Assembly: GCF_041381155.1 (NCBI RefSeq)
Contig: NC_091139.1
Location: forward strand, 9,238,383-9,302,382
Reading direction: 5' to 3'
Source: Argopecten irradians
Lineage: Eukaryota; Mollusca; Bivalvia; Pectinida; Pectinidae
Length of the DNA stretch: 64,000 bases
Below the pieces are notes generated by a model that saw only the letters and a list, made by a program, of their open reading frames with translations, made no database searches and had not been told where the DNA came from. A program made the translations under genes and the position numbers. Numbering within the stretch: the first letter of the stretch is position 1; every line of letters starts with the position of its first letter. This document shows positions 16,801-59,400 of this stretch, in pieces.

Positions 16801-18631
16801 TTTGGTTGACGATTATTAAATTATTATTATTTATTATGCCAACTGGACAACGACAAGTTCAACATGAAGCGCAAGCGCGCTTCATTAGATTCGACGTCGT
16901 CCAGTTTTCATTCATACTTTCATAATTGGTAATGAACGTACAATATAGTTCAATGATTAAATGACCATACAAATTTAGCACCAACTTATGAATCATTTTA
17001 GAATATTTGGATGCAACAAACTAAATAAAAAGAATGAAATTTACTCAGAATCAACAGGACATCCAAACTCTTGTGCATTTGCACGATGAGTTGCATTCTA
17101 TTTTATGTAAGTTTTTGGTTGACACTTTTCAAATAAGCAAAACAGATATGTGCACTCATCGTTGGATATCTTCATCAGCTGAAGGAGCAAACAAATAATG
17201 TCTCCTTTCTGAATCGTAAAACTGCATACAATTCTCTTATGTTTTTCACGCTTTTTATCAGTACAATGTGACAGGTTGTAGTGTGCTTGTTTGGTGCCTT
17301 AGGTTGCATGCTTCAGTGAGAGAGCAAGAATGTCCACTATCGCAAAGAGACACAAAAGCAATATACCGCAACCTCTAATTTATGCAGGAGACCCTCGTTA
17401 AATGACCTTATTCGTCAATGATATGTATTTATGTATGATGGCGTAAATTTACTGTAAGTAAAGTACTCTACACCAACGTATTTCCGCTGCATTTCCATGC
17501 TTATTATATATATATATTATATGCTAGGTGTAATTGAACCCGAAAGTCAGTTGGTTGACAGTATTAAATTGTCTTTGTTTTTTTAAGTGTACCGTGATAT
17601 TTCAAAACGCTTGCCAGGTGCATTTTTGTCATTTCTTTCAGGTTAGAAAGTGTGACGTCGTACTAATCATCGAAACGCTACATACCATACATACGCAATG
17701 CGTTATTGCATCATCAATCTATGTACCCAGGTTTTATAATCACGATTTATTATTTATCATGATTTATTATTTATCTAGGTATCCAGGTGTTATGTCCATG
17801 TTTTATCCTTTATCCAGGTGTTATGTCCATATTTTATCATTTATATATTTTATCATTTATCCAGGTATCCAGGTGTTATGTCCATATTTTATCATTTATC
17901 CAGGTGTTATGTCCATGTTTTATCATTTATCCAGGTGTTACGTCCATATTTTATCATTTATCCGGTGTTCTTTTATCATTTAGTGTCCATATTTTATCAT
18001 TTATCCAGGTGTTACGTCCATATTTTATCATTTATCCGGGTGTTATGTCCATGTTTTATCCTTTATCCAGGTGTTAGTATATATTTTATCATTTATCCAG
18101 GTGTCCAGGTGTTATGTATATATCTTATCATTTATCCAGATATCCAGGTGTTATGTATATATCTTATCATTTATCCAGATATCCCTATTTTATGTTGTCC
18201 CTGTCCGAAGAAAACCTACAACACAGAGTATGTCAATAACACAGCAGCACTGACTCAACAACTGATGAAGCTGAAAAAGGAAACACTGGTACAGTCAAAG
18301 AATACATCAGGTAAATATAAACTCGAAAACAATTAAATCACAGGTAATGTATCCATATTGATGTAATAATTTCAGTATTCCAATTTACCTCTACAATAGC
18401 ATCACCATGGATACCTTTTACTGTAACAGATATGACTAAAATATTTGATTATTCTGTTGAACAGCATACCGGAATTCGTTGATGTGTGCCAAGGATGACA
18501 GGCCCTCAGCAGTCCACTTAGGTATCACAGCTTCTGTGATTGTCTTCTCTGTACTCGGGGCAATTCTCCTCATGGACGTCGCTACCATGACGCAATCTTT
18601 AGCTCGTCCAATGCACTCAAAGATACGTTAG
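1841..18631 (+). CDS. C-type lectin / mucin-like type I membrane protein (lectin gene A), 5' partial
   Basis: Spliced gene; exons read from GT-AG borders and continuous frame: 1841-2042, 2782-2990, 4617-4791, 6133-6368, 7238-7267, eleven mucin-like exons (7808-10086), 18179-18310, 18465-18631 (stop TAG). The first two exons form one C-type-lectin-like domain (FWCVWI, GFVLVVKDD, then WINYN and WNNVEC...CY). The next two form a second (CKVDGTYYI, ICYWFDGG, LWIGLTD, a QPD motif and MNDFAC...PLC). QPD is the galactose-type sugar-binding triplet in this family. Thr/Ser-rich repeats follow, then a CCPCP juxtamembrane segment with an amphipathic KLKKETL stretch, then a hydrophobic helix (ITASVIVFSVLGAILLM). 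It is probably a cell-surface glycan-binding receptor, about 616 residues without the frameshifted exon at 8969. The start codon and signal peptide were not found. The architecture is matched exon for exon by gene B on the - strand. Confidence 0.8.
2101..2434. mobile_element. MITE family with TTAAAGTGAACAGTCG ends, degenerate copy
   Basis: About 334 bp in the intron after the first lectin exon. It is clearly related along its length to 39088-39434: both carry gaacagtcg near the left end and cgactattcactttaa at the right end. The left end of this copy has decayed (gactttgtgaacag). It is non-coding, consistent with a non-autonomous inverted-repeat transposon. Confidence 0.7.
3234..3345. repeat. 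Imperfect inverted repeat in lectin gene A intron
   Basis: The left arm around 3234-3290 (gtaactgtcctatatgtta, ttttactgtctta) pairs with the right arm around 3293-3345 (taagatagtaaaatgtagca, tatgggagagttac). It may be a small hairpin transposon remnant. Confidence 0.5.
4217..4325. repeat. Near-palindromic hairpin element
   Basis: The left arm ataagcctcaaactgtacaa... and gatagagaac are mirrored by gttctctatc and ttgtacacagttttcggcttat on the right, with a GC-richer loop (cggccctgacgggcc). It is a compact foldback element in the intron before exon 4617. Confidence 0.65.
5310..5521. repeat. Dispersed repeat with (AAAC)n tail
   Basis: The segment around gcatgcttcagtga... and caatataccgcaacct-like sequence recurs in diverged form at 17290-17430. 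It ends here in caaacaaacaaacaaaca (5503-5521). A short tail repeat at one end is typical of a retroposed element; no coding potential is seen. Confidence 0.5.
7014..7165. mobile_element. DNA-transposon end fragment rich in ATCCGGA motifs
   Basis: Begins cagttgacccgcgataatcc and repeats the core aatccgga several times in both spellings. A similar cccggattatcgg string occurs at about 3212-3225. It looks like a terminal fragment of a Tc/mariner- or pogo-like DNA transposon. The superfamily is a guess; the repeated core is seen directly. Confidence 0.35.
7690..7760. repeat. Short dispersed repeat (shared with 19160-19235)
   Basis: The string aatccgactttctgattgg, followed by ttcat...actatgaagaaaaa and ccgagaatg, occurs here and again at 19160-19235. 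It is non-coding and contains a small inverted repeat (ttcatatactatgaa). Confidence 0.5.
7808..10086 (+). repeat. Tandem array of mucin-like mini-exons with their introns
   Basis: Eleven exons, each in phase 1-1: 7808-7879, 8010-8078, 8207-8275, 8396-8464, 8588-8656, 8779-8847, 8969-9032, 9156-9224, 9347-9415, 9538-9606 and 10012-10086. From 8010 to 9606 the exon-plus-intron unit repeats about every 190 bp with high identity in both exon and intron. Each exon encodes about 23 residues of the type TGTMTTTDSVITTPPSNT, suited to O-glycosylation. Each is preceded by aaag/G and followed by a gtttgtac donor. Because every exon is symmetric, copies can be gained or lost without breaking the frame. 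The exception is 8969-9032, which is 64 nt long. Confidence 0.85.
11957..12104. repeat. Hairpin inserted in the retrotransposon C-terminal domain
   Basis: The left arm ccgtcaccgccatgttcatt...cggaacgcttctcga (about 11958-12000) is mirrored by tcgagaagcgttccgagag...aatgaacatggcggtgacgg (about 12057-12099). The loop is about 55 bp. The arms are nearly perfect, so the insertion is younger than the host retrotransposon copy. Confidence 0.7.
12105..12540. other. Unrecognised insert between reverse transcriptase and C-terminal domain
   Basis: The - strand translation after FADDTSLY loses all resemblance to a reverse transcriptase until the VWGNIP block at about 11950. This segment therefore looks inserted or substituted. 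No ORF, end repeats or family could be recognised. Confidence 0.4.
13575..15557. mobile_element. About 2-kb non-autonomous element inserted in the retrotransposon
   Basis: Retrotransposon coding sequence stops at about 15558 and resumes at about 13574. The insert ends are imperfect inverted repeats: the left is ttttaaaggtggtgttcaa and the right reads inward as ctaaaggttgggttgcaa. No transposase was recognised inside. The middle holds the 128-bp tandem repeat at 14150-14640. Confidence 0.6.
14150..14640. repeat. Tandem repeat, about 128-bp unit x about 4
   Basis: The markers ttaagtgaaaattggta, aacatggtaaca, ttggttgccatgg and ggaggcctctgattgg recur at about 14153, 14281, 14409 and 14524, giving steps near 128, 128 and 115 bp. 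Later copies are more decayed. It lies inside the 2-kb insert at 13575-15557, a common arrangement in non-autonomous transposons. Confidence 0.75.
16838..16930. repeat. Foldback element
   Basis: The arms are aactggacaacgac / gtcgtccagttt, with an inner gaagcgc...gcgcttc. A similar inner gaagcgc motif occurs in the palindrome at 50714-50815. Confidence 0.55.
17290..17440. repeat. Second, diverged copy of the 5310-5521 repeat
   Basis: Shares ttgcatgcttcagtgagag, tccactat, gacacaaa and caatataccgcaacct with 5310-5521. Non-coding, in the last large intron of lectin gene A. Confidence 0.45.
17765..18190 (+). repeat. Minisatellite spanning the acceptor of the gene A juxtamembrane exon
   Basis: About 13-14 irregular units of about 31 bp built from tttatcatttatccag followed by gtgttatgtccatat. 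The last two or three units instead continue with atatcc, exactly as the true exon does. The real acceptor is the final tttatccag, at 18171-18178, with the exon beginning at 18179. Each unit thus carries a full copy of the 3' splice site, and many have AG directly followed by GT. Confidence 0.8.
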
Positions 18632-18690
18632 CTCGTTCTATGCGCCAAAAAAGACGTTAGTTCGTTCAAGGCGCCCAAAGATACGGTAGC
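18598..18690 (+). repeat. Short degenerate tandem repeat over the gene A stop codon
   Basis: Three to four units of about 30 bp share ttagctcgt, caatgc/gcgcc and aaagatacg. The first unit encodes the last residues of the lectin A tail (LARPMHSKIR), and the stop TAG at 18629-18631 is the start of the second unit. Confidence 0.55.
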
Positions 18691-21600
18691 TCAACGACGA
18701 TCAAGTTCGGAGATACGTTTGAAATTTGTGAAATAACACTTAAAGCGTCACAATGATAGGACATTTAGGACGCATTTGACATTGCGTTGAACATGTAGAT
18801 ATTCCATCCTAGACATTACCAATTTAGGTGAACTGTATGTAATTCTTGAAGGGAAATCAAGCAGTGCTGATTTCAAGTTATTTAGATACAAGCGGGGTAT
18901 GTGTATGTGTTAGATTATGAATAGTACTTTTAACAAAAAGTGTTTTCTTACGTTATCATTGTAGTATAGTATAACAAGAACCTCGCTGTCAATCGGATTT
19001 TCTTCTAACGTATATATATTCCATTTCCCCATATTGTCGATCAGATTATGCATAATTGACGAAACCAAAGCCGGAATAAATCGGTAAGGAATGAAGAATC
19101 TGAACAATATATATAGCTATCATTTCACAATAATTTTATTTTTATTAGATTTCGCACTCAATCCGACTTTCTGATTGGTAGATACTTTTTCTTCATAATA
19201 CTATGAAGAAAAATTCCGAGAATGGCGTGAAAACTCGACGTTATCATGAAATCACAATAATGACGTCGACATTGCGTATTGATTTCGAAAATTAATCCAT
19301 TGGAAAATCAATGTAATAATACGTTAAAACGTATATTATGTTATCTGGGAAAAAAACAATTTTAAGCATTGATGTCACTATTTTTTTAACTTCATCGAGT
19401 TATGAAATAAAGTTTGTTTGCAAACTCTTGTGAAATTCCGCCAAGCGGATTCACAGTTTGCAAACAATATACAACCATTTTTATATTTTTACCGCATTAC
19501 ATTTTGTAAAGTATTTTTCCATCGCTCAATTAAGTTATAAAATGTAAATACTTTATTTTTATTTTTGGTAGAATTATTTATTCTTAATAGTAAGTATTAA
19601 AATTGTACACCATATATAACTGGATGTTGCTAGTAGTGTTTATGTCATTGTATTTACATGTGGAACTTAAATAAAACATTGATTGATTGACATTTTGTAA
19701 AAAGAGTATTATTTCTTCATTTTCTTTCAAATTGACATATACATAATAATGAGTTGCATTTAAATAGCAAACTACAAGAACAATTAGCATATAATTACAT
19801 GATGATAACATACATTTATCGTCAGTTAATAAGATAATAAAGTTAAATAAACTCGTGAATCCAGAATAAAGATGTGTGTTAATTGTGATATAACACATAC
19901 GAATTCTAGAATCGCAAATTCTGAGGAAACAATAGGTCGAGATGAGCACAACCGGCAAAGTTTACTCGGGTATACATGGATGCATGAATTTTTGATAATC
20001 TTAGAGAAACCTCTGTTCAAAAGTGCCAACATAATCACATAATCAAAGAAATGTGGTTATTATATAATAGTATAGTAATTATATATTATCAGATAACAAT
20101 ATTTTGTTTATGAAATATGACTGAGGAATTAAAAGGAATTTTATTCGATCAGTGTAAAATGAAGGATTCCTCAGTACATAAGGATATAATCTGACAGAGA
20201 TTGGAATAAAGTGTTCAGTTCTGTTTCAGTTCAGTTCAAAATCCGTGCAAAACCACAACATAAATCGTTTATAAGACTTTTATTATTAATCTTACATGTC
20301 TTAAATCAAAAACCACAAAAATGACACAACTCATCAATATTTTTCTTCAGTTTACACACAAACCATGTTGTTCATTATTTTAAGATCTTCATAATTTTTC
20401 AGAGCAATTGATCATAACTTATATGGAGTCATTACATTATGAGAAAACAGAAATCTTGTAAAATATTCACCGTTTTGCATTCTGTTACAAATTTCATTTC
20501 CTCCAATTAAAGATGCTCCACCGCCGACAAAGCATAAATGATATTCTTCATATGAACAATAATTGGTGTTTAATCGTGTATATATATGCCTAATTAAAAC
20601 AAAAATAATATAAAATAATTTATTTCGCCTTTGGTGCATGCGCAATCATTACTTCATTCCATATAGGATATAGTGTCACGGAATTTTTTCGGGATGCAAT
20701 TAATTATTTTTCATATTTTGAATTTTAATTAAAATTAGAAGCTCAAACTTTTTAACGGTAGTAATGGTGTAAAGTAAGTAACTTTTGTAACTGAAGAAAA
20801 ATACTAAAACGTCTGCTCCTGTTTTTGATAGTGAAAAAATACCATTTGTCAGCGGTGGAGCCTCTTTAAGTTAAAGGCAGCTATATATAGACGATTGAAT
20901 TCTGGACATTGTAAACGATTTGGATAATTAGAATAAAAATTAAACTACAATAGATAATTCAACAAACCATATTTACGAAATACAGTATTATTGGTTGATC
21001 GATATTGCGCGTTAACATATATATTGTAGTTTGTCATTTCAAGTACAATATTTAGTCGACCAAAATCAACCAGAAAGAAAGCATGTACATGTAGCAATAT
21101 TTGACAAAAATGCTTAATTACTAGACACGAATTCACTAGAATATCCTCCGATAAATGAATTATCAAAAAAAAAATGTAAAAATCTAAATTATGGAGTTAA
21201 TAGTGAAAAGTAGCTGTTGCCTCAATAACATTGCACTTGTAGGGCAACAATTATCTGTTGCGCAATTGATTTACTCGTCATGATAATAACAAATAAATAA
21301 GTGCATGTTTACTTGCTGTCCTCATAGTAGCACAAACAATTTTCAAGGTTAATTCCCATTCAATACTTGTTTAAAAATGTCTGGATAAGGGAACTTTACA
21401 GCTAGCCTACTCTAATGCCTTATGAATCCGAAGTGACACATTTTTATGCATTATACTTCCATTTATAGCACCATTTTGATTGTATGGACTGAAACTGAAA
21501 AGTACTCAATAATGACTCGAAATAAAGGACAATCTTCAGACTTATTTGTCTTTCAATTATTGGGTACCTCTTTCAGTTCATAATCGATCCGATATTTCAT

Positions 21601-22707
21601 TACAGCTTTTTAAACTTTCTGGTATAGTTTGTTGTAATCCGGAAGTCTGTGGAATAATACATGCCATGTGGTGAGTTATTTACTGTTGACAAGTAACATT
21701 CATACTCAACTTCTGTATAGGATCGGTGTCCTTTTGATACCATGTACTGAGTTTGGTGTACGGAACACTCCGAATATTTATGAAATCTTTAAAGTGTAAA
21801 ATATGTATCAATAACAAAATCGTTTTAGTTAGTGAACCACTATTCCTAGTCCGCTAAACCTGCCTATATTATTAGGTTCTTTTATCTATTTTTTAACCCC
21901 CCCCCCTCCCCTCCCACCCTCTTTAATATACATGTAAAGGCAAAATTAAAATTAAAAAGCCTAATGACTACACCATGCATTCCCACTTACTGAATGTCTT
22001 TTTTAATCTAGATTTAAAGATTACAAAGAAAGCGACGCCCAACTTCAAAGTAACACAGTCACCACAGTGTAACGCTATGCAATATTCCTTTGGTGTATAT
22101 CAACTTTAGGACAAAATTACCTTTTTTTCTGTAGCCTCCCGTTTTACTATGAGATGTCCAAATGTAGTCCAGGGGTGGGTAGAATGTCACTGAAATCAAC
22201 CCCTGGAGTATCGAGGATGCCAGTTCCCCAGAAACTGACCAAGGACAAACAATGCAAATAATTGCTGAGTTAGGCCTAGTGCTCATGAGAAAAACTGTTG
22301 GTCGTTTTTTTGTAAGCTACATGTACTTCAGGAACATAAATTGCTTTTCGCAATAACGAAGTTAGGGACTCTTCACTCGGTAAGATACCAAAACCAGTCG
22401 TCTTTTACATGCAGATGCTACATGAATAAATGGAAGTTTTTTTATGAATGAAGACTTGATATCCTTATAAACGCACATAATGTCGACTTGGAGTTTCAAT
22501 TTTTGGCGGGAAAATATTTTGGAAGACCAGTGCGCTTAGTTTACATAATTTTTATTTTTCGGTTTAAAGTCTGTTTAAATATACATATTTCCAAACAATA
22601 ACGCAAACAAACACTTTCGTTAAATTTATATTATCTAAAAGCTTTATATTATTTTTAACCAATCAACGCTATTTCCGGTCTAATCCCCAGCCAGCAACAC
22701 AACAAAA
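18632..22707. other. Spacer between lectin gene A and PLAA
   Basis: No supported exon. It contains the 19160-19235 dispersed repeat, a 363-bp MITE at 20507-20869, a C-rich run at 21897-21921, and at about 22035-22210 sequence related to the element at 1384-1678. Since PLAA starts at 22708 on the + strand, its promoter should lie in the last few hundred bases. No TATA box was convincing. Confidence 0.5.
20507..20869. mobile_element. MITE family 2 (AGATGCTCCACCGCC ends), copy 1
   Basis: Begins ttaaagatgctccaccgccg and ends agcggtggagcctctttaa, with TTAA at both outer edges, consistent with a TTAA target site (piggyBac-like behaviour). Length is 363 bp, non-coding. Other copies are at 42390-42684, 43641-43890 (truncated), 48647-48992, 59322-59679 and 59728-60069. 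Confidence 0.85.
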
Positions 22708-25700: not shown

Positions 25701-28700
25701 TGCAATAAAATGTATGAATATGTTAGGATTATAGCCCCACACCAGTACTCTGGGCCCATAGATAGTTCAGTCTAGTGTTGTTATTACATAGATTATGAAG
25801 TGAAGCAAGGAGAGGGCATGTATAGGCATGTTGCCTGTTGCCCAATTCCGATTGTCTTTAACATCTGACAATGAAATATTCTGAAATGAAAAGTGGAGCA
25901 AGTCTGTTGATCCTGTTGGTATTACATTCTCCTTCACACAACACCAGCTGCTAGTGTCTATATCACTGAGCTTCAACTGCTTCATCTTACACTGATAACT
26001 TATATAAATCTTTCATTGATATAAAAGTACTTTCTCGTAAATGTTTTTAAAAAAATCCTTTCCAGGACACGAAGACTGTGTCAGAGGGTTAGCTGTTCTA
26101 AAGAAGCCCGAGTTCTTGTCATGTTCTAACGATGCCACAATTCGTCATTGGTCCATAACTGGTGACTGTATTGGAGTGTATTATGGCCATGAGAACTTCG
26201 TCTATAGTATCAGTGTTCTGCCAAATGGTGAGGACTTTGTAAGCAGTGGTGAAGATCGTACAGTCCGTGTGTGGCAGGGAGGAAAGGTCACCCAGACCAT
26301 CGCTCACCCCAGCATGTCCGTCTGGTCCGTATGTGTTCTCCCGAATGGTGACATAGCATCAGGTTCAAGGTAGGTGCTGTATAATCTTGATGAAACCATT
26401 TTTACCAGACGCAAAGTTTTACATGTGGTTAGGATGGTTGGTCATTTAGGTATGCTCAATCATCTGAAATTATTTTGAAGGAGATAACTGAACAGAAACT
26501 GTATTGATATTCTTTGTGATGTGTATTTCTTTGTTTATCGATGTAAGAAAAAGAAGAAGAAGAATCTCATAGAAAACAATAACAATGCAGCTTTAGCATT
26601 TCTGAATTATAAAACAACTTTAGGTTTTTACTTTTTGTTGCTCTGGACTAGTTCTAAAAAATCAAAGAGATTTCTAAATTATTTGTTAATGGTAACAAAA
26701 GGTATTCATGCCTTTCATGTTCTCGGGTACAATTGCTCTGCATGGTATGTTTATGATATATGTAATGTTGGTGTAATATAATGTTGCATTCTTCATACAT
26801 TATCTAAGATTTTTTAATAAACTGTAATGATTAGAAAATCATTGACTTTACCAACAGAGCCAAAAAAGCATGCTTCATCAGCTGAGTGACAGAGACTGTA
26901 TTTAACACTCTGTACAAACCACACATGACCTGCTCTGCCAGCTGAGTGACAGCAGTGTTTTTCCTGGGTATTTTGGGAAATTGCCACCGGGTGAAAATTG
27001 GGAAATTTTGTGCGATAAAAGTAGGAAATGAAAAAATTTAAACGGTGTTTATGGAAATTTTGGAAAAGGTAGAAATAGAAAATTATGCTTCTCTAAGAAT
27101 CAAGTGTAAGAATAGATATTAAAATACAACGTTCAGACTTGGGATTTCCGAATGTTTTAGTTTTGTTGCACAAAATACGCATCAACTGACTGATTTGGGA
27201 AATTTAGACATAGATTTGGGGAAAAAATAACAAGAAATACAATTGGGAATGGGGCCTTATTTCGGCCCCAAGTATATAGGCAGGACAGACTGTATTTAAC
27301 ACTATGTACAAACCACACATGACTTGCTCTGTCAGCTGAGTGACAGAGACTGTATTTAACACTATGTACAAACCTCACCGACCTGCTCATTTTACAGAAT
27401 AGACCCTATTTCATTTTCAGCGATGGCATCATACGTGTGTTCACAACACATTCAGAGAAAGTTGCCTCCCCTGATCAGCTGACTGCATTTGAGGCCGAGG
27501 TGGCATCTGCTGAGGTCCCTACACAGATTGGGGAGATACAGAAACGAGATTTACCTGGACCGGAAGCTCTCCTCAACCCAGGTGAGCTGAAATAGATGTA
27601 GGCACTGGGGTTACCCATCAATGGCCCCATATGAAAATATTATGAATTAATAAAAATATGACAGCATAAATAAACCTAAATTCCAGTTGAATATTCTGTT
27701 AAATGTTTTAAACTTTATTATGGATATATGCTTCATATTAAACATGCAAATAAGAATCTAGATGATAAGAATATAGTCTACACACAAATTTTAAACTTAG
27801 TCATTGTCTACGGTAAATCTCAAAATGTTTAATTAGTAACCAAAGAAACAAAGATGGCCATAAAATTTTAATAACCAGAATATAGACTTTATAATTTTAA
27901 CCTATTATCTATATTAAATACCTAAACTTTTCTTTGATAATAAGGAAACAAAGATGGCCAGACCAAAATGGTAAAAACTGGGGATAAAGTAGAGATCTAC
28001 CATTGGGAGGCTGCACAAACAAAATGGACAAAAATCGGTGACGTCGTGGGATCTAGTGGAGGCAGCCAGAAATCCTCCGGCAAAACACTGTACGAGGGCA
28101 AGGTAACTGTTAGTAAGATAGTGTATGTGTGAAGTTTACTATTTACAGGAGTATGACTTGTAGAATTTTTCCCTAATCTTTCCTCGGGTAATTCATGAAC
28201 GTCCCATTCGAGGCTTAGGGAATGATTCTTTTTCTCCCATACACAAAAGAAAAAGATGAGATAATAGCCAAAAAACGAGAACTTTCACTATGACATAATC
28301 ATGGTTCTGTCAACTGCACGTCAATATTGATGATGTCATTAACGATGCAAGCCATGTTTACCCCACATGAAGTCATAGGAGTATGACTGTATATTACTGT
28401 GTTTTGTAAGAGTATGACTGTATATTACTGTGTTTTGTAGGAGTATGACTGTATATTACTGTGTTTTGTAGGAGTATGACTGTATATTACTGTGTTTTGT
28501 AGGAGTATGACTGTATATTACTGTGTTTTGTAGGAGTATGACTGTATATTACTGTGTTTTGTAGGAGTATGACTGTATATTACTGTGTTTTGTAGGAGTA
28601 TGACTGTATATTACTGTGTTTTGTAGGAGTATGACTGTATATTACTGTGTTTTGTAGGAGTATGACTGTATATTACTGTGTTTTGTAGGAGTATGACTGT

Positions 28701-31700
28701 ATATTTATTACTGTGTTTTGTAGGAGTATGATGGTATATTACTGTGTTTTGTAGGAGTATGACTGTATATTACTGTGTTTTGTAGGAGTATGACTGTATA
28801 TTACTGTGTTTTGTAGAGTATGATATATACTGTATTTACTGTGTTTTGTGTATGATGTATACTGAGTATGATGTATGATTATATTACTGTGTTTTGTAGG
28901 AGTATGACTGTATATTACTGTGTTTTGTAGGAGTATGACTGTATATTACTGTGTTTTGTAGGAGTATGATGACTGTATATTACTGTGTTTTGTAGGAGTA
29001 TGACTGTATATTACTGTGTTTTGTAGGAGTATGACTGTATATTACTGTGTTTTGTAGGAGTATGACTGTATATTACTGTGTTTTGTAGGAGTATGACTGT
29101 ATATTACTGTGTTTTGTAGGAGTATGACTGTATATTACTGTGTTTTGTAGGAGTATGACTGTATATTACTGTGTTTTGTAGGAGTATGACTGTATATTAC
29201 TGTGTTTTGTAGGAGTATGATATATTGCTGTGTTTTGTAGGAGTATGACTGTATATTACTGGGTTTTGTAGGAGTATGACTGTATATTACTGTGTTTTGT
29301 AGGAGTATGACTGTATATTACTGTATGACTGTATATTACTGTGTTTTGTAGGAGTATGACTGTATATTACTGTGTTTTGTAGGAGTATGACTGTATATTA
29401 CTGTGTTTTGTAGGAGTATGACTGTATATTACTGTGTTTTGTAGGAGTATGACTGTATATTACTGTGTTTTGTAGGAGTATGACTGTGTTTTGTATGACT
29501 ATATATTACTGTGTTTTGTAGGAGTATGACTGTATATGACTGTGTTTTGTAGGAGTATGATTGTATATTACTGTGTTTTGTAGGAGTATGACTATGTGTT
29601 CAGTGTTGACATTGAGGAGGGTAAGCCACCCCTCAAACTGCCTTACAACAAGTCAGAAGACCCCTGGTTTGCAGCCCAGCGCTTCCTAGAGAAAAATAAC
29701 CTCAGTCAGCTGTTCCTTGACCAAGTGGCAAACTTTATCACAGAGAATTCAGGAGGATCAGGAATGACAATAGATCAGACTGCACCTCAGGTCTCTGATC
29801 CATTCACAGGTAAATTGACATTTTAGTCCTGACTTTGGGAAGTTAGCTGTAATAGTATGCATTTTAGCCTTAAAATTTTCATTGTACTCCAGTTCACTGA
29901 CAAGAAATGTTGTCATGTTTGTAAAGATGATGATGAAAATTTTTTATGTTCAACTTGATAGAATAAAATCTAGAGTATTTAAAGAAAAAAAACAGCAACC
30001 TACGTACAGTCACTGTCTTGTAGCAACCCCACTGTGAGTCTCAAACTTGTGTCCCACAGATTTGGTTCAGTTATAGATATGAAATTGTTCTTTTTTGCAT
30101 GAAAACCAAAATTTTGGTATGTTTTAATGATTATTTATCTCTTTCTTATTTATAAATTATGGTTCAAAGATGTAATATTAAGAATATGTTCTTGGTAACA
30201 CAAGATCCATACAAATACATGTAACTTTGTAGGATACAAAATACTTCACATTATAGATAGTAAATATACATTATGTATTCATTACCTGTGCTCAGGTGGA
30301 GGGCGCTATATACCTGGAGCACCGACCATAGGAGGTAAACAGAACAGCCAACAGTCGCAGCCAGTGTCGTATGGAGCTGATCCATTTACTGGTGAGTCTG
30401 GATCAAACATGTTCATAACATTAGAATAGAAGATAGATTACATTTCGATTAAAGAATTATTGATTAATCAGAAGGTAACACTTAAGGATAAAATTGAAGG
30501 ATAAAATTTAAGGATAAAATTGAATTTTCATATATGTGGTCTATTTCTTTAAATATACTGTCAGATAGTCCGATTGTGATTGGATTGCAAACATCATTCA
30601 ATAACAATTCATATAATAATTTGAGATTGATCACCACTTTTGCCAACTTTATTTGACAGAGTTATGGAAGTTCCTTGATTAATAAAGACAGAAAAAAAGT
30701 GTGCCATCTCACACAACTATCATATGTCAATTTCATTTCAAGTTCTGATGTTGATTTCACTTTATTTGGTAAAGGACAATTATGTTAGCTCATATATTAT
30801 TAAACTAAAGAAAATGTTATAATTCATGATGTTTTTCTCTTAGACCTTTAAAGAAATTCCTCATGTTTCCACAATACATGAATCTTTGTTAATTTTTTAT
30901 CTATAATATGTCACTCAAGTAAGCTATCAATTCTATGAACTTTTGTTACAAGGTTCAGGGAGTTACCAGCCAGCCTCAGCTACACAGTCATCAGGAGTCA
31001 CCAACCAATACTTCCCTCAGAAATCCTACGTCACATTTGATGCCTCCAATTCAGCAGCAATTATAGGTAAGAAGATCAATCATCCATAGATAGAAGAATA
31101 TTTCTCTTCATTGCATTTTGATTGATTGAAGGTATTACCAGTTAAATCAAAGGTTTTAGATAATAAATAATTTTGAAGATCTTACCATAGCTTTATAATC
31201 CAAATCTTATACCAGTATTTAAAGATAAAGAAGTTACATAGCAACATGACTTAGGACCCTAGCCGACTCACATCGGAGATGGTTGCATTCAATTTTTTAA
31301 GCAAATATCTATCAGGCATGGTCTTATAAAATGTTCTGTTGTCTAGGTAAACTGAAGGAGCTGAATTCTACAAAGGTAGAGAAGGGCTGTCAGGTAGAGG
31401 TAGAAAAACTAGAGGCATTGTCGGACCTCATACAGGGAAAACCAGCCAACGCTGACCAACTCACCACCATGATGAAGATCCTTTCCTGGCCACATGGTAC
31501 GTAGCTTTCACATTAATCGACAATAACAGAATCCTCTGCCTCTTAACAAGTGGGACAGGAATCTCAACCTGGGTGATAAGATTATTTAGTTATCAAGTTG
31601 CGAGGTTTTGCTGAGTTTTTGACAGCATACGAATCTTACCCTGATGATAGAAGTTCACCCGATCTCCACGAGTGTTTGACAGCATAATAATCTTACTCTG

Positions 31701-36192: not shown

Positions 36193-39100
36193 TCACACAC
36201 TTACGGATTCTCTCGGCACGAATGAAAGCTTTAGAGGTCTGTCCGGGGTCATCACTGTGTTTAAAACTGGCTCGATGTCTTCGTGGTGATATTCTATCTT
36301 GAAATTCTGTACCATCTGATAAAAACAAAATGAAAGGCGACACTTTTTTAATGATATGTTTATATGGCGTATTAACATGGACATTTAACATAAAAAGAAA
36401 ATAAACATTCTGACTTATATTCGCACAAACTTTATTTCGTGTTTTTTATGTCCATCATCATTTTTTACGGCGACTTTTATTCCCGATTTGGAGGTAAAAA
36501 GCTCCAATTGTACTTGTAGTTGAATTCTTTTCGCGACGATTCATTTTCATAAATTTTGATCAAATACGAATCAGGCGAAAATAAATTTCACCCAAAAAGA
36601 AGTTTGTGAAAAGTAAAAAGTGATAGCAGTAGTGAAACGAAAACTATTAATCGAAGTGCAACTATTTTGATAAGTTGGCTTATGATTTGTGCTCAGACGT
36701 ACAAAGATAATGCTTAAAGCAATTATGAAATCATAAACATATAATTTATTTGAAGCTATAATGAACTTCATACTGACCTTTGACAACATTATATGCATCT
36801 CTTGTTCAGCAAACCGACGACCTTTAATGTAAAAAACACGAGGATGAAAAAAACTTTTACATATTGCCGTTATATGTATTAAAACATAATAATATGATTA
36901 CTTTGGCAATTTCTATTTCTATGACAATACCAATTATATTTAATCTTCAATAATATTTTGTAAAATAGCACTTGTCTGAACGTTTGAAGTATACGTAATA
37001 ATAAACGCTACTCTAAACGGTTAAATTGACTCAATTGTCCACAAATAAACAGCTATTAAGAAAATCCACTAAGGACTGACTATTAGAAGTGTTTCAATTA
37101 ACCTACCGATGCACATTCGTGCCCCATGTCCCCATACAAGGTTTGATAGAGCTTTGATAGTCGAGTCCATATTGGCCTCTCTTAGCCACCGTTCAGGACG
37201 AAACTCCTCTGGCTCGGGGAAATACTGTGGGTCCCGGAACATTCCGTATAAATTGGCCTGCACGTGTGTCTAAAATAAAGATTAACTCATGAGAGAAACC
37301 TGCATGTATTACAATATAGTTTAACACATTATATTATCTAGTTGTTTAAAAAGTTTTGCTAGAAGATATGATACACATTGATCTAATTACAATGTACTTT
37401 CTTTAAATACCCTATTTGTAACCTGTAAATGTCATTCTAATGAAGAAAAAAACGCGATATACGGTACGGTATCTCGGCACGAATGAAAGCTTTAGAGGTC
37501 TGTCCGGGGTCATCACTGTGTTTAAAACTGGCTCGATGTCTTCGTGGTGATATTCTATCTTGAAATTCTGTACCATCTGATAAAAACAAAATGAAAGGCG
37601 ACACTTTTTTAATGATATGTTTATATGGCGTATTAACATGGACATTTAACATAAAAAGAAAATAAACATTCTGACTTATATTCGCACAAACTTTATTTCG
37701 TGTTTTTATGTCCATCATCATTTTTTACGGCGACTTTTATTCCCGATTTGGAGGTAAAAAGCTCCAATTGTACTTGTAGTTGAATTCTTTTCGCGACGAT
37801 TCATTTTCATAAATTTTGATCAAATACGAATCAGGCGAAAATAATTTTCACCCAAAAAGAAGTTTGTGAAAAGTAAAAAGTGATAGCAGTAGTGAAACGA
37901 AAACTATTAATCGAAGTGCAACTATTTTGATAAGTTGGCTTATGATTTGTGCTCAGACGTACAAAGATAATGCTTAAAGCAATTATGAAATCATAAACAT
38001 ATAATTTATTTGAAGCTATAATGAACTTCATACTGACCTTTGACAACATTATATGCATCTCTTGTTCAGCAAACCGACGACCTTTAATGTAAAAAAACAC
38101 GAGGATGAAAAAAACTTTTACATATTGCCGTTATATGTATTAAAACATAATAATATGATTACTTTGGCAATTTCTATTTCTATGACAATACCAATTATAT
38201 TTAATCTTCAATAATATTTTGTAAAATAGCACTTGTCTGAACGTTTGAAGTATACGTAATAATAAACGCTACTCTAAACGGTTAAATTGACTCAATTGTC
38301 CACAAATAAACAGCTATTAAGAAAATCCACTAAGGACTGACTATTAGAAGTGTTTCAATTAACCTACCGATGCACATTCGTGCCCCATGTCCCCATACAA
38401 GGTTTTGGATAGAGCTTTGATAGTCGAGTCCATATTGGCCTCTCTTAGCCACCGTTCAGGACGAAACTCCTCTGGCTCGGGGAAATACTGTGGGTCCCCG
38501 GAACATTCCGTTTTTAATTATAATAAATTGGCCTGCACGTGTGTCTAAAATAAAGATTAACTCATGGAGAAACCTGCATGTATTACAATATAGTTTAACA
38601 CATTATATTATCTAGTTGTTTAAAAAGTTTTGCTAGAAGATATGATACACATTGATCTAATTACAATGTACTTTCTTTATAATACCCCTATTTGTAACCT
38701 GTAAATGTCATTCTAATGAAGAAAAAAACGCGATATACTGGGTACATTTATATATAATTTCTCTCGTGATGTAAAAACGTGTGAATTATCTTGTCAATAA
38801 TCAAACCAAATTATGATAAAAAACGCATCACAACTGGACACTTACGCCTGCCGGGAGATTATAACCTCCGACTTCCATGTCCTTTTGTACAAATCTGCTC
38901 GTGGCGAATGTTATTGGATATAATCTGGAGAAAAGACATAGAATATTGATTTTATTCTGCTTTGTCAATTTTGAATTTCTTTCTATTATTTTTCACAAAT
39001 CTTCAACCAACCAGTGAACGTAATACATGCAATATCATACTGTGTGAATACCTGCACATTTAAGCCGAAGTCGCTGTATGAAAGACATTAAAGTGAACAG

Positions 39101-42100
39101 TCGGGCAAGGAGGGCTAAAGTCGGTAAAAATGATGTGAGTGTATCCGGTAGAATTTCTTATGAAATAGAAAAATAAAATATCTCGTCAGAATCTGTCTGC
39201 GTACGAAGAAATTAATTTAAAGTACAGGAATCCTAAAACGTCCTCCCGGCTGACTATGTCCGTGGTTACATTTCCACGCAGCCTCGCTTTCAATGCTTTC
39301 AACTTTTCTTTATTTCAATGGTCAGAACTGGGAAACGTAAGCAGAACTTGACCGTCGTCAATAATATGTGAGAACTTTTGGAAAGCCAATGAACGCATTT
39401 AGACTGAATTTCTTTGCCCGACTATTCACTTTAAAGATAAATTTGTCATGACGAACATAGAATTGAAGCTTTGAATATATTTCAATACAGTATTACCTGA
39501 AAGTTTCCTTGATGACAGCTTTGATGTAGGGCAGTTTGTTGAGAGTGTCAGGTGTAATGGCTTCCTTGTTTGGGAGGACTGTCTGGATTTCTTGGAATAG
39601 TTTTTCCTGCACCTCTGGGTTCTTTGCAAGGCAGTACATCACCCATAGGGAGCCGTTTGAGGTCTGGTTTAATGGGAAACGATATGTCAATACATTTAAG
39701 TTTAAATGATACATGTTGAAGCGGTTACATATTCTTAACCAAACACAAAACAATTAATAGACTCCAGAGAGCAGAAATTAAGGAGGAAATTTTCAGCTAA
39801 GAAGACGCTATTGATATTCTCAATGCTTTCCTATGGACACAGGTTCTTATAAATGTGTTGATAAATAAAAGAAGATAAAAGAAGGCCCCTGGGATTCAGA
39901 AAAAATGAGCCAATCACTTCTTTTGTGAATCACCATCAGCTTAATTTATCATGTTCTTCTTAAGAATTGTTCCTAATATCTTATATTCCGTCTTTGTATA
40001 TAACAGAGTTAGCTCCCATGCGGGTAGGTATCTATTGTTACGTCATTATTTTGTGAGCGCAATTCACGTCATTTTCTCCGAAAATATGACGTTACGCTCG
40101 CAAAAACATGACGTCACAATCAATATCTACCCGCAAGTGCAGATAACTCTGTAATATGCAAACCCGGAATTGTAACTGCATGGATCTAACGACAGGTTCC
40201 TTCTCGATGTTTCAATATACAATTGGATTATAAATAAAGATGGCATTATTGATTTATATGCGGATTACTTCATTGTCATTTTATCTCATTGATAGACCTC
40301 ACCGTTTCCGTGGCCCCTACAAGCAGGTCGACCGCTGTGGAGAGGGCGTCCTCCGGGGTCAGGGACTCTTGGGACATCAGGTAGGTCAGAAAAGAAACCT
40401 TTTCGTTCTCTTTGGGGACAATACCTTCAAGGGCCTTCGCTTTCTGTATACGAACAAAATATAATCCCATTACTGCATTAATTATTATGTAGGCCAGAAA
40501 AAGTGTACCTTCAACGGCCTACGCTTTATACCAAAACATATATGAGAGCATCCACTGAAAACGAGATGTATTATGTGCAAATATTGGACATATTGGCATT
40601 TTAGAATGAGTAAAAAAGGGAAATAAATCTGTGTCAAACTATACGTAGATACAAATATAAGCCAGTAACACATGGTTTATTTCCCCTTAAAGGTAATTTC
40701 TTTGGTAAATAAAGAGCATTAGTGTTGCTGTGTATTGAATAGAGGAAGAAGCATATGAAGAAAATCCCTAAACGCATTCTATTGCGGCATTATTCAAATT
40801 CTATAATTAAAATCTTTTAACATTTTTTTTTCATTTTGAACATTTTTTTTTTAATTTGGTATTAAATACGAATTGCTATCTTACTTTATCAACAAATGAC
40901 CGGCCGATTTTCATCACGTTGTCTGCGTACTTTTCATATTGGTTCCACATTTTCGTCGGTAAGATTTTATAAATTGGAACGTTGTACATGAGCGGTTGCA
41001 TGAGTTTGAAGAAACCCTGAAGGTTGTCAATGAAGTCTCGTGCCTGTAGTGAAGATTGGCTGCCAAAGCATCCGATTCTCTCTTCGAACAGGAAAGTGCC
41101 AATGGCTGTAAGTAAACAATAAATATCATCTAACAATGGGAATAAACAATTAATATCAAGCAATGGGATAAAATCAAACAATATAATATCAAACAATGGG
41201 AATAAACAATTAATATCAAACAATGGAATAAACAATTAAATATCATCCAACAATAGGAATAAACAATAATATCAAACAATGGAATAACAATTAAATAAAC
41301 AATGGAAAAAAATATAAAAAAACAATATATCAAACAATGGGAATAAACAATAGATATAATCAACAAACAATAGGATATAAACATATAAATATCAATCAAC
41401 AAACAATGGGAATAAATAATAGCTATCATCAAACATTTCATTGCCATTAAGCATTCTTCACAATAGGACCTAAGTGACAAAAATGGCTTGAATTAGCATT
41501 TAATGATGGTCAAACTGAAGCTTCATATACATGTATATACATTTGAGAAGTTACAGCATATTACGCAACCATTAAACATATTGAGAATTGATGCAAACAT
41601 ATCATAGTAGTTTAAAAGGAAAAGTGCAATATATTAAAAGTCTTCATTGTATTCAAGTGTTGACAATCAAAACATTTAAGATTAACTTTGCATTTAAAAA
41701 AAAAAAATTATTCATTTATATATTTTTTTTTATTTATTTATTTTCGTATTTTTTATTTGATGTTTTGTTAATTAATTTATTCATTTATTTATTGGAGAAA
41801 ATGATGACGTTTGATATAGTCTGCTTAACAGTGTTGTTTACAGGAAGCTGAATCTGCTTGAGTTAGCTTGTTTTAACTTACATTCCATGGCCCATTTGAA
41901 AATTTCCTTCTCAAGGACTGGGACCTCGTGATTTTCTGTGCTACTTTCCTTGAGATGACTGACGAAATCTTCAGCCACTGTATCCATACTGCCACAGTAA
42001 TCCAGTACTTCCTTCATCTTTAACATCTTCTTACTCACTACTGTGCGGTACTTGTGCCACTCCTCTCCTTGACTAAACAGCAATGTTATATGGAGGCTTT

Positions 42101-44824: not shown

Positions 44825-44995
44825 CTGGCTGAATAATCAACTATTACAACATTTATGTAGCATATCTTTGCTTTTTGACTTAATTATCAACTATTTTTAC
44901 ATTTATGTAACATACCTTTGATTTTTGGCTTAAATATCAACTATTACAACTTTTATGTCACATACCTTTGATTTTTTGATGTTCTAAAGTTCCGA
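44825..44995. repeat. Tandem repeat, about 60 bp x 3, upstream of the P450
   Basis: Three similar blocks carry caactatta/tttacaa, catttatgta, catacctttg and tttttggctta. They lie 300-470 bp upstream of the predicted P450 start codon. Confidence 0.6.
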
Positions 44996-48375: not shown

Positions 48376-48646
48376 CGTATGTGTCTGCTACATTTTGAGT
48401 ATAAAAGTAACACACTGCATCGGCCGTCATTAATCCCTGTAAATATTTTATTCCCTTTCCTCTGAAGAATTCATTGAAATTCTGCCGAAACCTTCCATAG
48501 TCAAAACATATTCAAAATTATTAATTAGACAGTCTTCGCCCTCAAAGCCAGTGGACAGGGCTAAGAGAGAACAACTTAAAGATAAAACTCTTCAAATTAA
48601 AGAAATTGTTAATTTTATTTTAAAGATAAATTAATTACAAAAATCA

Positions 48647-48992
48647 TTAAAAATGCTCCACCGCCGACAGAGCATAAACAAAATTTATCATTTGAACCAT
48701 AATTGATAATATTTCGTGTATATATATGATAATTTGTTTTGCTTTCGTTGTCTGCGAAATCGGTACTTCATTCCATATAGGGAATAGTGTCATGGATATT
48801 TTTGGGATGCAAATACTTATTTTTATTACTTTTTTATCGAAGTAAAATATTTTTTTAAAAACTCAGACTTTTGAATGATGGTAATAGCTGTAAACTAAGT
48901 AACATTTTGCTACTGTAGAAAAACACTTATTCATCTGCTCCTGTTTTTTAATAGATAAAGACTACCATTCGTCGGCTGTGTAACATCTTTAA
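48647..48992. mobile_element. MITE family 2, copy 4
   Basis: Left end attaaaaatgctccaccgcc; right end gtcggctgtgtaacatcttt, decayed. 346 bp. Confidence 0.75.
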
Positions 48993-53400: not shown

Positions 53401-56400
53401 CCCATCCAATGACAACTTATTACCTATCTAACAACAGTTTACTTATCTAACGACAACAGTTTACCCATCTAACAAAAACAGTTAACCCATCTAACAAAAA
53501 CCATAGTTTACCCATCTAACAAAAACAGTTAACCCATCTAACAAAAACCATAGTTTACCCATCTAACAAAAACAGTTAACCCATCTAACAAAAACCATAG
53601 TTTACCCATCTAACAAAAACAGTTAACCCATCTTACAAAAACAGTTTACATATCTAACAGATTAAACACTCTGTACCTTGTTGTGTTGTTGTAGGAGCCG
53701 TAGTAGTGGTCATAAAGGACACGTCCATAGTCGTAGATTGGGTTTCATATTGTCAACAAAATGATCAGTGATGACCAAATCATAAGGAGTACATGTATAA
53801 AGATGACTTTGTAACGTCGTACTAAAAAACCTATCAATGCAAGATCTTCTTATTTAGAATTCCGTCTTTGCATATTACAGAGTTATCTCCCCAAGCGCTT
53901 AGGTATTGAAATACAAGATGGCGCTTCTATCGTAAACAATAAGGATATCCCGAAATTTAACACCCATGATTACTTATTTATCCTTAAGAAGATCTTTTCT
54001 GTATGTAAGTACAGATCTACCACCAGGATGGTTCAGTGACATAGAGAATACATGGTTAGTATCTTACAATACAAGGTTTATTCTGGTGCGAGACTTAGGA
54101 AAGCCGAGATGACGAGGCTTTGCCGAGACATCTCGGCTTTGCGTGTCGAGCATCAAAATAAAACTTGTATTGTAAAATACTAACCGTGTATTCTGTTTAT
54201 CCTGCAACCATTCGTTTTGCTCGCAGCGACACGCTTCTTTGATGCGGAGGTAAAGATTTATTCCGTAAACCGAATGAGAGTGTACTCCTTTTTTACTGCC
54301 GTTGGAAATAAATAAGTGCATTTACAACCAGTATCCGTAATTCTATTCAGTGTGATATATCACTGAAACAAAATGAAAATACTCAAAAACAATAAATACC
54401 CATTAAAGAATTACTTTACAATACATAACTTTACCATGAGCCAAGAAATAGACGACACTGCCATAGGATATTTTCGACATCGTAAAAATGACGTCATTCC
54501 GGTGAATGTGACGTCAGGTTTTAGCGGGATTGAATGACGTTTCATTCACCGGAAGGTTCAAGTTCTGGGTCAACTTAGAAAAAGGTTCCGTCAGATATGA
54601 AACAAGCTCAGGTGATTGTATTGACGGATAAAGCATTTCGTATTGACAGATAAAGCACAAGTTTATCCGGCAGTAGTTATCCGTCAGTACTATGTGGGAC
54701 AGTTGAAAGATAAAACAGTCTAACCATATAACGACAACAGTTTACCCATATAACGATAACAGTTTACACATATAACAAATTACATACACCTACCCTGCTG
54801 TGTTGTCGTAGGAGCCATTGTAGTGGTCACACAGGACAAGCTCATTGCCGTAGATTGAGTTTCATCTGTACAACAAAATGATCAACATGTGAGTGTTGCC
54901 CTAATGATTCTGTCTATGAACAATACATCTCCAATTGGTACGTCATAATAACATGAATTGTATCTAAGATAATGCTAATTTACAATAAATATACAATAAT
55001 TACAGAGTGACCTAGAGCACAATGAGACCCTTTGTTGTTTACTTACTGAGTGACTTAGAACACAGTGAGATCATATGTTGTTTACTTTGACTTACTTACA
55101 AGTGAGATCTTTTTTACTTAAGTAGAACACAGTGCGAGATCCTTTGTTGTTTACTTACTGAGTGACTTAGAACACAGTGAGATCATTTGTTGTTTACTTA
55201 CTGAGTGACTTAGAACACAGTGAGATCCTTTGTTGTTTACTTACTGAGTGACTTTGAACACAGTGAGATCCTTTGTTGTTTACTTACTGAGTAACTTAGA
55301 ACACAGTGAGATCATATGTTGTTTACTTACTGAGTGACTTACAACACAGTGAGATCCTTTGCTCTTTACTTACTGAGTGACTTTGAACACAAAGAGGTCC
55401 TTTGTTGTTTACTTACTGAGTGACTTAGAACACAGTGGGATCATATGTTGTTTACTTACTGAGTGACTTACAACACAGTGAGATCCTTTGTTGTTTACTT
55501 ACTGAGTGACTTAGAACACAGTGAGATCTTATGTTTTTTACTTATGAGTGACTTAGAACACAGTGAGATCTTTGTTTTACTTACTAGGACTAATTGTCCT
55601 TTTTACTATGAGTTAAACACAGTGAGATTTGTTTTTACTTATGACCTACACAGCGAGATCCTTTGTTGTTTACTTACTGAGTGACTAAGAACACAGTGAG
55701 ATCATATGTTGTTTACTTACTGAGAGACCTAGAACACAGCGAGATCCTTTGTTGTTTACTTACTGAGTGACTTAGAACACAGTGAGATCCTTTGTTGTTT
55801 ACTTACTGAGTGACTTAGAACACAGTGAGATCCTTTGTTGTTTACTTACTGAGTGACTTTGAACACAGCGAGGTCCTTTGTTGTTTACTTACTGAGTGAC
55901 TTAGAACACAGTGGGATCATATGTTGTTTACTTAATGAGTGAGTGACTTAGAACACAGTGAGATCCTTTGTTGTTTACTTACTGAGTGACTTAGAACACA
56001 GTGAGATCCTTTGTTGTTTACTTACTGAGTGACTTAGAACACAGTGAGATCATATGTTGTTTACTTACTGAGTGACTTAGAACACAGTGAGATCCTTTGT
56101 TGTTTACTTACTGAGTGACTTAGAACACAGTGAGATCCTTTGTTGTTTACTTACTGAGTGACTTAGAACACAGTGAGATCCTTTGTTGTTTACTTACTGA
56201 GTGACTTAGAACACAGTGAGATCCTTTGTTGTTTACTTACTGAGTGACTAAGAACACAGTGATATCCTTTGTGGTTTACTTACTGAGTGACTTTGAACAC
56301 AGCGAGGTCCTTTGTTGTTTACTTACTGAGTGACTTAGAACACAATGAGGTCCTTTGTTGTTTACTTGCGCAGTGACTTAGAACACAGTGAGATCATTTG

Positions 56401-59400
56401 TTGTTTTACTTACTGAGTGACTTTGAACACAAAGAGGTCCTTTGTTGTTTACTTACTGAGTGACTTAGAACACAGTGGGATCATATGTTGTTTACTTAAT
56501 GAGTGACTTAGAACACAGTGAGATCCTTTGTTGTTTACTTACTGAGAGACCTAGAACACAGCGAGATCCTTTGTTGTTTACTTACTGAGTGACTTAGAAC
56601 ACAGTGAGATCCTTTGTTGTTTACTTACTGAGTGACTTAAAACACAGAGGGATCATATGTTGTTTACTTATTGAGTGACATAGAACACAGTGAGATCCTT
56701 TGTTGTTTACTTACTGAGTGACCTAGAACACAGTGAGATCCTTTGCTGTTTACTTACAGAGTGACTTAGAACACAATGAGGTTCTTTGTTGTTACTACTG
56801 AGTGACTTAGAACACAGTGGGATCTTTGTTGTTTACTTGCGAAGTGACTTTGAACACAGTGAGTCCTTTGTTGTTTACTTACTGAGTGACTTAGAACACA
56901 GTGAGATCCTTTGTTGTTTACTTCGAGTACTTGAACACAGTGAGATCCTTTGTTGTTTACTTACGAGTGACTTAGAACACAGTGAGATCATTTGTTGTTT
57001 ACTTGCTGGGTGACTAAGAACACAGTGAGATATATGTTGTTTACTTACTGAGTGACTTAGAACACAGTGAGATCATATGTTGTTTAATTAACGAGAGACT
57101 TACAACACAGTGATATCATATGTTGTTTACTTACTGAGTGACTTAGAACACAGTGAGGTCCTTTGTCGTTAACTTACTGAGTAACTTAGAACACAGTGAG
57201 ATCATATGTTGTTTACTTACTGAGTAACTTAGAACACAGTGAGATCATATGTTGTTTACTTACTGAGTGACTTAGAACACAGTGAGGTCCTTTGTTGTTT
57301 ACTTACTGAGTGACTTAGAACACAGTGAGGTCCTTTGTCGTTAACTTACTGAGTGACTTAGAACACAGTGAGATCCTTAGTTCGTCACAGTTTTTGTCAT
57401 GCCAATCTAGGTTATCTGAGATCCGCATTATTACACAGTCCTGTGGGGGGTTGGAATCGTCATTAGGCTGCTCGGACTCCCAGGCTAGGTATGGAGCTAT
57501 GTCACCTTGGAATGTTACATAGGTACCCTCGGAACACATGTCAGTCACTCCGACCCAAAGGTTCGAGTTTTGTCCTTCGCTTTGATGTGCCTTTCTGGTA
57601 TCGAAATAAATGCGTGACATGTTGCATGGGATTTTTTATGTCATATTTAATTAACAACCAAGTTATTTCAGGACATGTTGTATTTAGGAAAAGGAAGCCA
57701 GTGTCCCGGAGAAAAAAATATCGACATATGGTCAGTCCATTGCCCTCACGCTGGATTCGACTTTCGAACCTTTGGGTAAAAATGATATTGGTGATATGTA
57801 GAACATATTTTTTCAATGATAAAACTTAAAATAATATTGTGAATGATAGTACAACTTAAACTTCTAGGCCACCGCAGCTTTTGATTTGGTACAGGTATAT
57901 GCATATATTGAAGGAAGCACACTCAAGCACAATGTATAAAACGCACTCATTCACTCTTCAGTAGTTGCTGACACAAATGTATCCACAAGATATATACATG
58001 TATAACAACATGACAAAAGTATGCGCTATTTTCCAAGATGGCGGATGTCATTTTAGAAAGCTGGTGTAAAACGTTATTTAAACATCAATACAATAATTGC
58101 TCATTCCTAGTATTTTGTGGCGTGACCTTTGGACTTCACATATGTCGTTAGTAACGCCATCAGCAACGTCATGTAAAAGTTCAACCTTTAATCGCACGGA
58201 GCGCACAGTCACCATTTTGATTAATCGCGAATACTTTTGCTATGGCGCTGTACATATGAAACAGGGATGATACAGAAATGGCATGTTCCAAATTGTTACA
58301 ATAAGTATAAGTATACTTTAACATTTGGTTTCCTTCCTATTTTTAAGATGACATGTAATTCAATTCAAAAGATAATTCATCAATTTGTTCTTAATCATTT
58401 AAGTAACTTAATCCTCGAGGGGTTACTATTACTGTTGCTATATCGACCCCTGGACTATCTCATAGTAAGACTGAAAGCAAAGGAATAGATCATGTAACTT
58501 AGTCCTTTGCAGTCTTCAAAGCAAGTCTTTGTAGGCCTGTGATTGGTCAAATTTCTTTTAAACTGCCTTCAGATTTACAATGAGATAGTCCTTTGGGTGA
58601 ATATAACGACATTGATAGTAACCCCTAAAGTTTAGAGAATTTATTAACTTATGGTTAGGAAATTAATAAAACACTTCAACGTCAACTCTATCGGTTTTAT
58701 CTCCAATGGTAATTGCCTGAATGTTTGGGGGTTTTAGGGTAGATATGTTCGTAATGTAATATGTTAGACTAAAGCCACCCCGCATGGTCTTCGTCATGAC
58801 ATTGTGCTATCATAAAGTCATATTGGTGGAAATTTAAGTAGACATACAAATTTATAATATACTTACTTCAGCATTAAAACTTACTGAATTTTAGGCAGAT
58901 TCGTGTAGGCAATAAATCAGTCAATAAGGAACTTACAGGATTCTGCTATGAAATGTTGTCCTCAGTTCATTATCGACGTCGGCGTTGGGTATCACAGCCA
59001 AGCTACCTCCGTCTGCCACGCAGTCGGCATGACCCTCCACAGCTGTCTTACGTGTCGTAGTGGTCCAGAAACATAGGTTATACGGCAGTACAAACATCGA
59101 CTCTGGAGGGCAGTCTATATCATGGTTAAAGAGACGTTATACGACAGTACAAACATCGACTCTGGAGGGCAGTCTATATCATGGTTAAAGAGACGTTGTA
59201 CGACAGTATAACAGAATAGAATAGAATCCATAACCATCCATTATGGAGGATAATGTTGTTACATGGTACATTTTGGTACTAATTAGGATTTCAGAAAAGT
59301 GTTTAATGGATCAGAGAGTTTTTAAAGATGCTCCACCGCTGACAAATTGTATTTTTTCACTATCAAAAACAGGAGGAGACGATTTAGTATTTTTCTTCAG

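Follow-up and report, generated by a model that had tools for sequence, protein, structure and literature searches.

Do minisatellites in genes of the bay scallop sit preferentially on splice junctions? This question is raised by a window of 64,000 nucleotides, the whole stretch of DNA that we analysed, at C6:9238383-9302382 of the 846-Mb Argopecten irradians assembly. A first-pass annotation had placed five tandem arrays at exon borders in four unrelated genes there, each with an exon border inside the repeat unit. The four genes are a lectin-like receptor gene that we call gene A (1.8-18.6 kb, + strand; tblastn matches to Mizuhopecten proteins), PLAA (22.7-32.6 kb, +; Pfam and spliced alignment to the A. 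irradians record P0001), a CYP10-like P450 gene (44.5-36.2 kb, -; spliced alignment to Mizuhopecten P0123), and a second lectin-like receptor gene, gene E (from beyond 64 kb to 50.4 kb, -; spliced alignment to Mizuhopecten P0121).

Exon borders of PLAA, the P450 gene, and gene E were taken from these spliced alignments, which yielded 12, 11, and 7 exons. The translated PLAA model is the same as P0001, residue for residue, over all 773 residues. The first aligned P450 exon was wrong and was replaced by an exon set by hand from the translation (44530-44404). Borders of gene A were set by hand from tblastn matches, GT/AG, and phase, which is a weaker basis than the alignments of the other genes. 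In these hand-set models the donor of P450 exon 1 and three gene A donors are 1-2 bases off the GT; no array that we counted as spanning a border lies there. A single pair of Mizuhopecten proteins matches both gene A and gene E, which we therefore call paralogues, so that the four genes named in the annotation represent three families.

Arrays at exon borders in the window

The tandem-repeat finder TRF detected 15 tandem arrays in the window, and the five arrays in question were found where the annotation had put them. In four of them, one in gene A, one in PLAA, and two in gene E, there is an exon border inside the unit; the fifth, in the P450 gene, merely adjoins one. The four confirmed arrays are thus in three genes.

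The best supported of the borders is the junction of PLAA exons 7 and 8. A 31-bp minisatellite (28376-29597, +), identified by TRF, exon-edge score, and comparison of copies, has a length of approximately 39 units (35.5 copies according to TRF) and occupies most of intron 7. Its unit, TGTATATTACTGTGTTTTGTAG|GAGTATGAC, includes the acceptor together with the opening bases of the exon, and the array reaches 14 nt into the exon. In the spliced alignment, exon 8 (29584-29809, +) has the last copy of the array as its acceptor. A regular exon 7-8 junction is present in the PLAA protein record P0001, and it splits the Pfam PFU domain so that positions 3-53 end exon 7 and positions 54-111 start exon 8. 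The exon part is conserved as EYD in PLAA of the scallop Ylistrum (P0002). The anchored score of this exon edge against its own array was 11, which was matched by none of 64 other edges and none of 200 shuffles. When we tested 35 acceptor copies (34 with the exact motif and a lone copy at 28147), the frame was kept by the last copy only and the other 34 truncated the protein. Within the array, the AG that the protein requires is preceded by 33 other AG copies with the exact motif, so that choice of the first AG would not suffice for PLAA.

The lone copy is an isolated fragment of the unit, AGGAGTATGACT (28147-28158, +), for which 0.03 matches are expected across the whole window. It comes after CTATTTAC, about 45 nt past the exon-7 donor and 217 bp before the array, and may possibly be an older copy or position of the acceptor. 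Places elsewhere that resemble the PLAA array are 64-78% identical to it. We inspected three of them, L002 and a pair from a single C15 array (L003 and L008). Their units differ from that of PLAA, and as far as these three loci, representing two arrays, go, a dispersed family appears unlikely.

Gene E carries two of the arrays. At its donor there is a 43-bp minisatellite with 52-56 copies (55000-57382, -; two TRF rows, exon-edge score, and comparison of copies). The donor of model exon 4 lies within the unit, ..CTCACTGTGTTCTAAGTCACTCA|GTAAGTAAACAAC.., and the array extends 33 nt into the exon. This lectin-domain exon (57350-57594, -; alignment to Mizuhopecten P0121 and Pfam Lectin_C) has the first copy of the array as its donor, where the border reads ..TCACTCA|GTAAGTAAAC... 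Only this first copy among 39 donor copies tested kept the frame; the other 38 gave a stop. At an acceptor of the same gene there is a 59-bp tandem duplication of 2.2 copies (59077-59208, -; TRF and exon-edge score). It takes in the acceptor, ccatgatatag|ACTGCC, together with 38 nt of a lectin-domain exon (DCPPESMFVLPYN..; 58937-59114, -; spliced alignment and tblastn) that is downstream of the duplicated acceptor. Both edges had an anchored score of 29 against their own arrays, and in each case no other edge (0/64) and no shuffle (0/200) equalled it. The exon parts RISLCSKSL and DCPPxSMFVLPY of gene E are conserved in Mizuhopecten P0121. A SINE-like dispersed repeat with a phrase like CTTTAAAGATGCTCCACCGCCGACAG occurs twice at 59340-60070 (-), and similar pieces seem to be present in L029, one of the myosin stretches described below.

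The array in gene A is the weakest of the four. It is a degenerate 31/39-bp array (17746-18184, +; TRF and exon-edge score) with TTTATCCAG in the unit, and the tail exon (..CCPCPKKTYNTEYVNNTAALTQQLMKLKKETLVQSKNTS; 18179-18310, +; tblastn and phase, exon-finder score 18.7) has its acceptor in the last copy. According to TRF it reaches 6 nt into this exon. The anchored edge score was 9, matched by 0/64 other edges and 1/200 shuffles. The same gene has a 191-bp unit in 8.6 copies (7986-9626, +; TRF) made up of a whole 69-nt Thr-rich exon and intron; this is a tandem exon duplication with both borders in the unit. A 29-bp array starts within the last coding codons and extends past the stop (18599-18692, +). 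One gene A intron contains broken open frames (11331-16629, -) that we take to resemble LINE-type reverse transcriptase.

The P450 array, of the 27-bp class (41113-41432, -), adjoins the acceptor of CYP10 exon 5 and stops 7 nt before it. The exon-edge score was only 6, which 6/64 other edges and 11/200 shuffles also reached. Because the score is so readily matched, spanning of the border is unsupported and we rejected this array as a border-spanning one. Elsewhere in this gene, the last exons are present twice, approximately 1.2 kb apart (36196-38517, -), and upstream of exon 1 there is a 50-bp array with ATCAAAG|GTATGT in the unit (44832-44976, -), a candidate donor for an untranslated exon at the 5' end.

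Border arrays outside the window

The same pattern occurs in independent genes, where we found six more border arrays. Five were in nine myosin stretches (65.4 kb), which were chosen from Pfam Myosin_head matches, blind to arrays, and are partly paralogous; one was among 20 fixed-coordinate 10-kb stretches (L009-L028). For the exons in these stretches we relied on an exon finder of our own, for which the window served as training set first and the stretches themselves afterwards; the calls were checked by eye as myosin. Stretch L029 has an acceptor array (2825-3083) with an exon part of 8 nt and a donor array (4611-4761). The other myosin cases are donor arrays of 37 bp x 10.7 in L032, 63 bp x 4 in L033, and 54 bp x 4.8 in L034 (reverse complement 5045-5301). 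In L034 the frame is open through all copies seen. The other donors could be used there because the 54-nt unit stays in frame, and use of inner donors could give longer proteins with 18 residues added per copy. The sixth case, in an M13 peptidase gene in the fixed-coordinate stretch L010, is a 45-bp donor array of approximately 34 copies, ..GGACTGAAGGAAGCATACCGG|GTAAGTAATG, and the Pfam M13 peptidase match continues across the junction (E=5e-40). No counted border array was found in the myosin stretches L030, L035, and L036, and L031 had no array of any kind. The ten border arrays thus comprise one donor and three acceptors in the window, and five donors and one acceptor outside it. The border that is used reads AG|GT in two of the ten, the L029 donor array and L033.

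Some arrays were left uncounted. In L037, a 34-bp array (4600-4818) that starts 17 nt past a myosin donor has GAAAA(A)GTRAGTAGATT as its repeated motif; it is a possible further border array. There is a two-copy, 99% identical 118-bp duplication within a myosin exon of L032 (reverse complement 3557-3799). Because 118 cannot be divided evenly by three, the copies are not both readable in one frame, and the second starts with a possible acceptor, ccccag|ACGATG. Overlaps flagged by the exon finder in L012 and L016 and its exon calls in L023 are inside long arrays and were judged false. A second flag in L010 (8133-8409) was unconfirmed.

A possible preference for borders and its explanations

We compared the number of arrays at borders with a chance model in which one unit per array falls uniformly in the array-collapsed intron, with up to 45 nt of exon allowed. 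The final set comprised 18 gene pieces with 121 introns, 242 borders, and 36 intronic arrays, and spanning was defined as at least 6 nt. L010, L017, L024, and L028 of the fixed-coordinate sample were counted as gene pieces, with two arrays added. The count omits the 191-bp exon array, the array at 18599-18692, the exonic duplication in L032, and the L034 border array, the last because the stretch ends within its intron. It also omits arrays beyond the modelled gene spans, for example that at 44832-44976, the other L010 arrays, the last L030 array, and arrays of L024 and L028.

In the window, 4/11 intronic arrays spanned a border with 0.75 expected (P=0.002), a P value that is not independent of selection as the window had been singled out for its border pattern. 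The independent genes gave 5/25 with 2.87 expected (P=0.15), and all arrays together 9/36 with 3.62 expected (P=0.006). For the gap to the nearest border, 5/25 independent arrays were within 10 nt (4.37 expected, P=0.45) and 12/25 within 40 nt (7.19 expected, P=0.02). Splitting the independent arrays post hoc by copy number, we found that half of those with at least three copies spanned a border (5/10, 1.39 expected, P=0.006) and that 9/10 were within 40 nt of one (3.49 expected, P=0.0003). Arrays with fewer than three copies spanned borders in 0/15 independent cases (1.48 expected) and in 1/18 of all cases (1.67 expected). The three-copy split and the cut-offs of 6, 10, 20, 40, and 80 nt were set after the data had been seen, and several cut-offs were tried. 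The preference that the annotation described is therefore only partly supported: it is present in the window and among independent arrays of at least three copies, it is not significant in the independent arrays as a whole, and the loci are few and partly paralogous.

How might such arrays arise? A short local duplication of approximately 30-60 bp would straddle the border between exon and intron. Slippage or unequal exchange would then multiply the unit, so that each copy would have a bit of exon, a splice site, and a bit of intron. The copy used would be the outermost one, joined to the body of the exon: the last copy where the border is an acceptor, the first where it is a donor. Frame and homology point to this copy. 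The remaining copies would be spliced out, and growth of the array would be cheap because they become intron. The exon part is taken as the source of the repeat, as the exon edge is conserved in Mizuhopecten and Ylistrum. The sequences show units that contain exon edges, conservation of the exon side in relatives, loss of frame with the other copies tested in PLAA and gene E, and recurrence of the pattern in other genes; we infer duplication by slippage or unequal exchange, the actual use of the splice sites, the shielding by splicing, and the anchoring by the exon. Events that straddle a border would be many because minisatellites abound in this genome and the sampled genes have short introns.

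The last point bears on whether any preference is needed. Chance by itself, that is, many border-straddling duplications in a repeat-rich genome with short introns and no preference for borders, is a serious contender, though we would not call it probable; it competes with our reading on the preference only. In 200 kb of fixed-coordinate sequence there were 46 arrays of period at least 12, covering 25% of the bases. This corresponds to 14.7 per 64 kb versus 15 in the window, and is uninformative as a test of enrichment because there are few genes there. The median intron was 486 nt in the genes counted; A. i. irradians is reported to have 26,777 genes with 7.1 exons per gene (PMC7090048). The counts for all independent arrays and for those with fewer than three copies agree with chance, whereas the excesses among arrays of at least three copies, both spanning borders and within 40 nt of them, argue against it, with cut-offs that were chosen post hoc. 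We tentatively propose that purifying selection on the exon edge would keep one copy pristine and let border arrays grow or persist. The counts are suggestive of seeds that land by chance and of growth or persistence that is favoured at borders.

A mutational preference, in which the splice border itself seeds duplications through AGGT-like sequence or breaks linked to transcription or the spliceosome, would also explain the excess of multi-copy arrays and the involvement of both donors and acceptors, and tandem genomic duplication is described as a genuine route of intron gain (PMC3443670). We consider it unlikely: the used border reads AG|GT in just two of ten cases, so that the seeding at AG/GT proposed in the annotation does not hold as a general account, and the arrays with fewer than three copies, which are nearest to fresh seeds, showed no excess. 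It is more improbable still that the arrays are functional, with extra splice sites that regulate splicing or expression. Dozens of sites look intact (GTAAGT in 42/56 gene E copies and AG in 35/40 PLAA copies), but the motifs are not clearly better conserved than the remaining unit, and the protein was broken by nearly all copies tested (38/39 in gene E and 34/35 in PLAA). Divergence was 0.051 in GTAAGT versus 0.079 elsewhere in the gene E unit, and 0.100 in AG versus 0.044 elsewhere in the PLAA unit. On these figures we discarded the idea that selection acts on the splice motifs of the copies; in PLAA the AG diverges more than the rest of the unit.

Returning to anchoring by the conserved exon edge, multi-copy genic minisatellites of the bay scallop may, tentatively, be anchored on exon borders genome-wide, because splicing would hide the border copy while selection on the exon would keep it pristine. 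If so, thousands of genes would have arrays of decoy splice sites, from which new exons and introns could be drawn at any time. Such arrays would also test, in nature, how the spliceosome chooses among dozens of identical sites. The border arrays identified here offer natural material for studying how introns are gained and how splice sites are chosen.

Relation to amphioxus mirages and other known systems

The border arrays of the scallop are very probably mirages, with local duplication and splicing at the outermost copy as the accompanying reading. They are tandem, minisatellite-like arrays within genes, exon and intron are both present in the unit in four of the five arrays examined in the window, and both types of border are involved. 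The original paper on the mirage in amphioxus Adh is reportedly Canestro et al. 2002. The class, for which the annotation knew no name, is described from the amphioxus genes Adh3, the globins BflGb6 and BflGb9 (PMC3087553), TnC, and PGBD5 (PMC3902484). As in the scallop, the amphioxus unit spans an exon-intron border, donors and acceptors occur in several genes, and the other copies are described as apparently ignored (PMC3087553, PMC3902484). The hosts differ, a lancelet versus a mollusc, and the scallop arrays are known here from the sequence of one assembly. Copy number differs as well, with up to 52-56 in the scallop versus 6 and 3 units in two BflGb6 haplotypes (PMC3087553). We recognised no mollusc mirage in narrow word searches of open papers, judged by titles and the openings of abstracts. 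In the accounts cited here, arrays under this name come from lancelets only, and ten scallop mirages, six of them outside the window, suggest that they are a general outcome of repeat-rich genomes.

Two other systems are related. Internal tandem repeats in human segmental duplications are reported as minisatellites at exon-intron boundaries that change gene structure, with units of 30 bp on average (PMC2812944). These alter or create introns in recent paralogs, whereas the protein inferred for the scallop genes stays the same. Intron gain by tandem genomic duplication (PMC3443670) likewise involves a local tandem duplication that meets splice sites. With AG|GT at two of the ten used borders, an AGGT in the unit that supplies both splice sites is not general among the scallop arrays. 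There, duplication of an exonic AGGT is described as producing a new intron; in the scallop, by contrast, the border that is multiplied and the intron that is lengthened were both already there.
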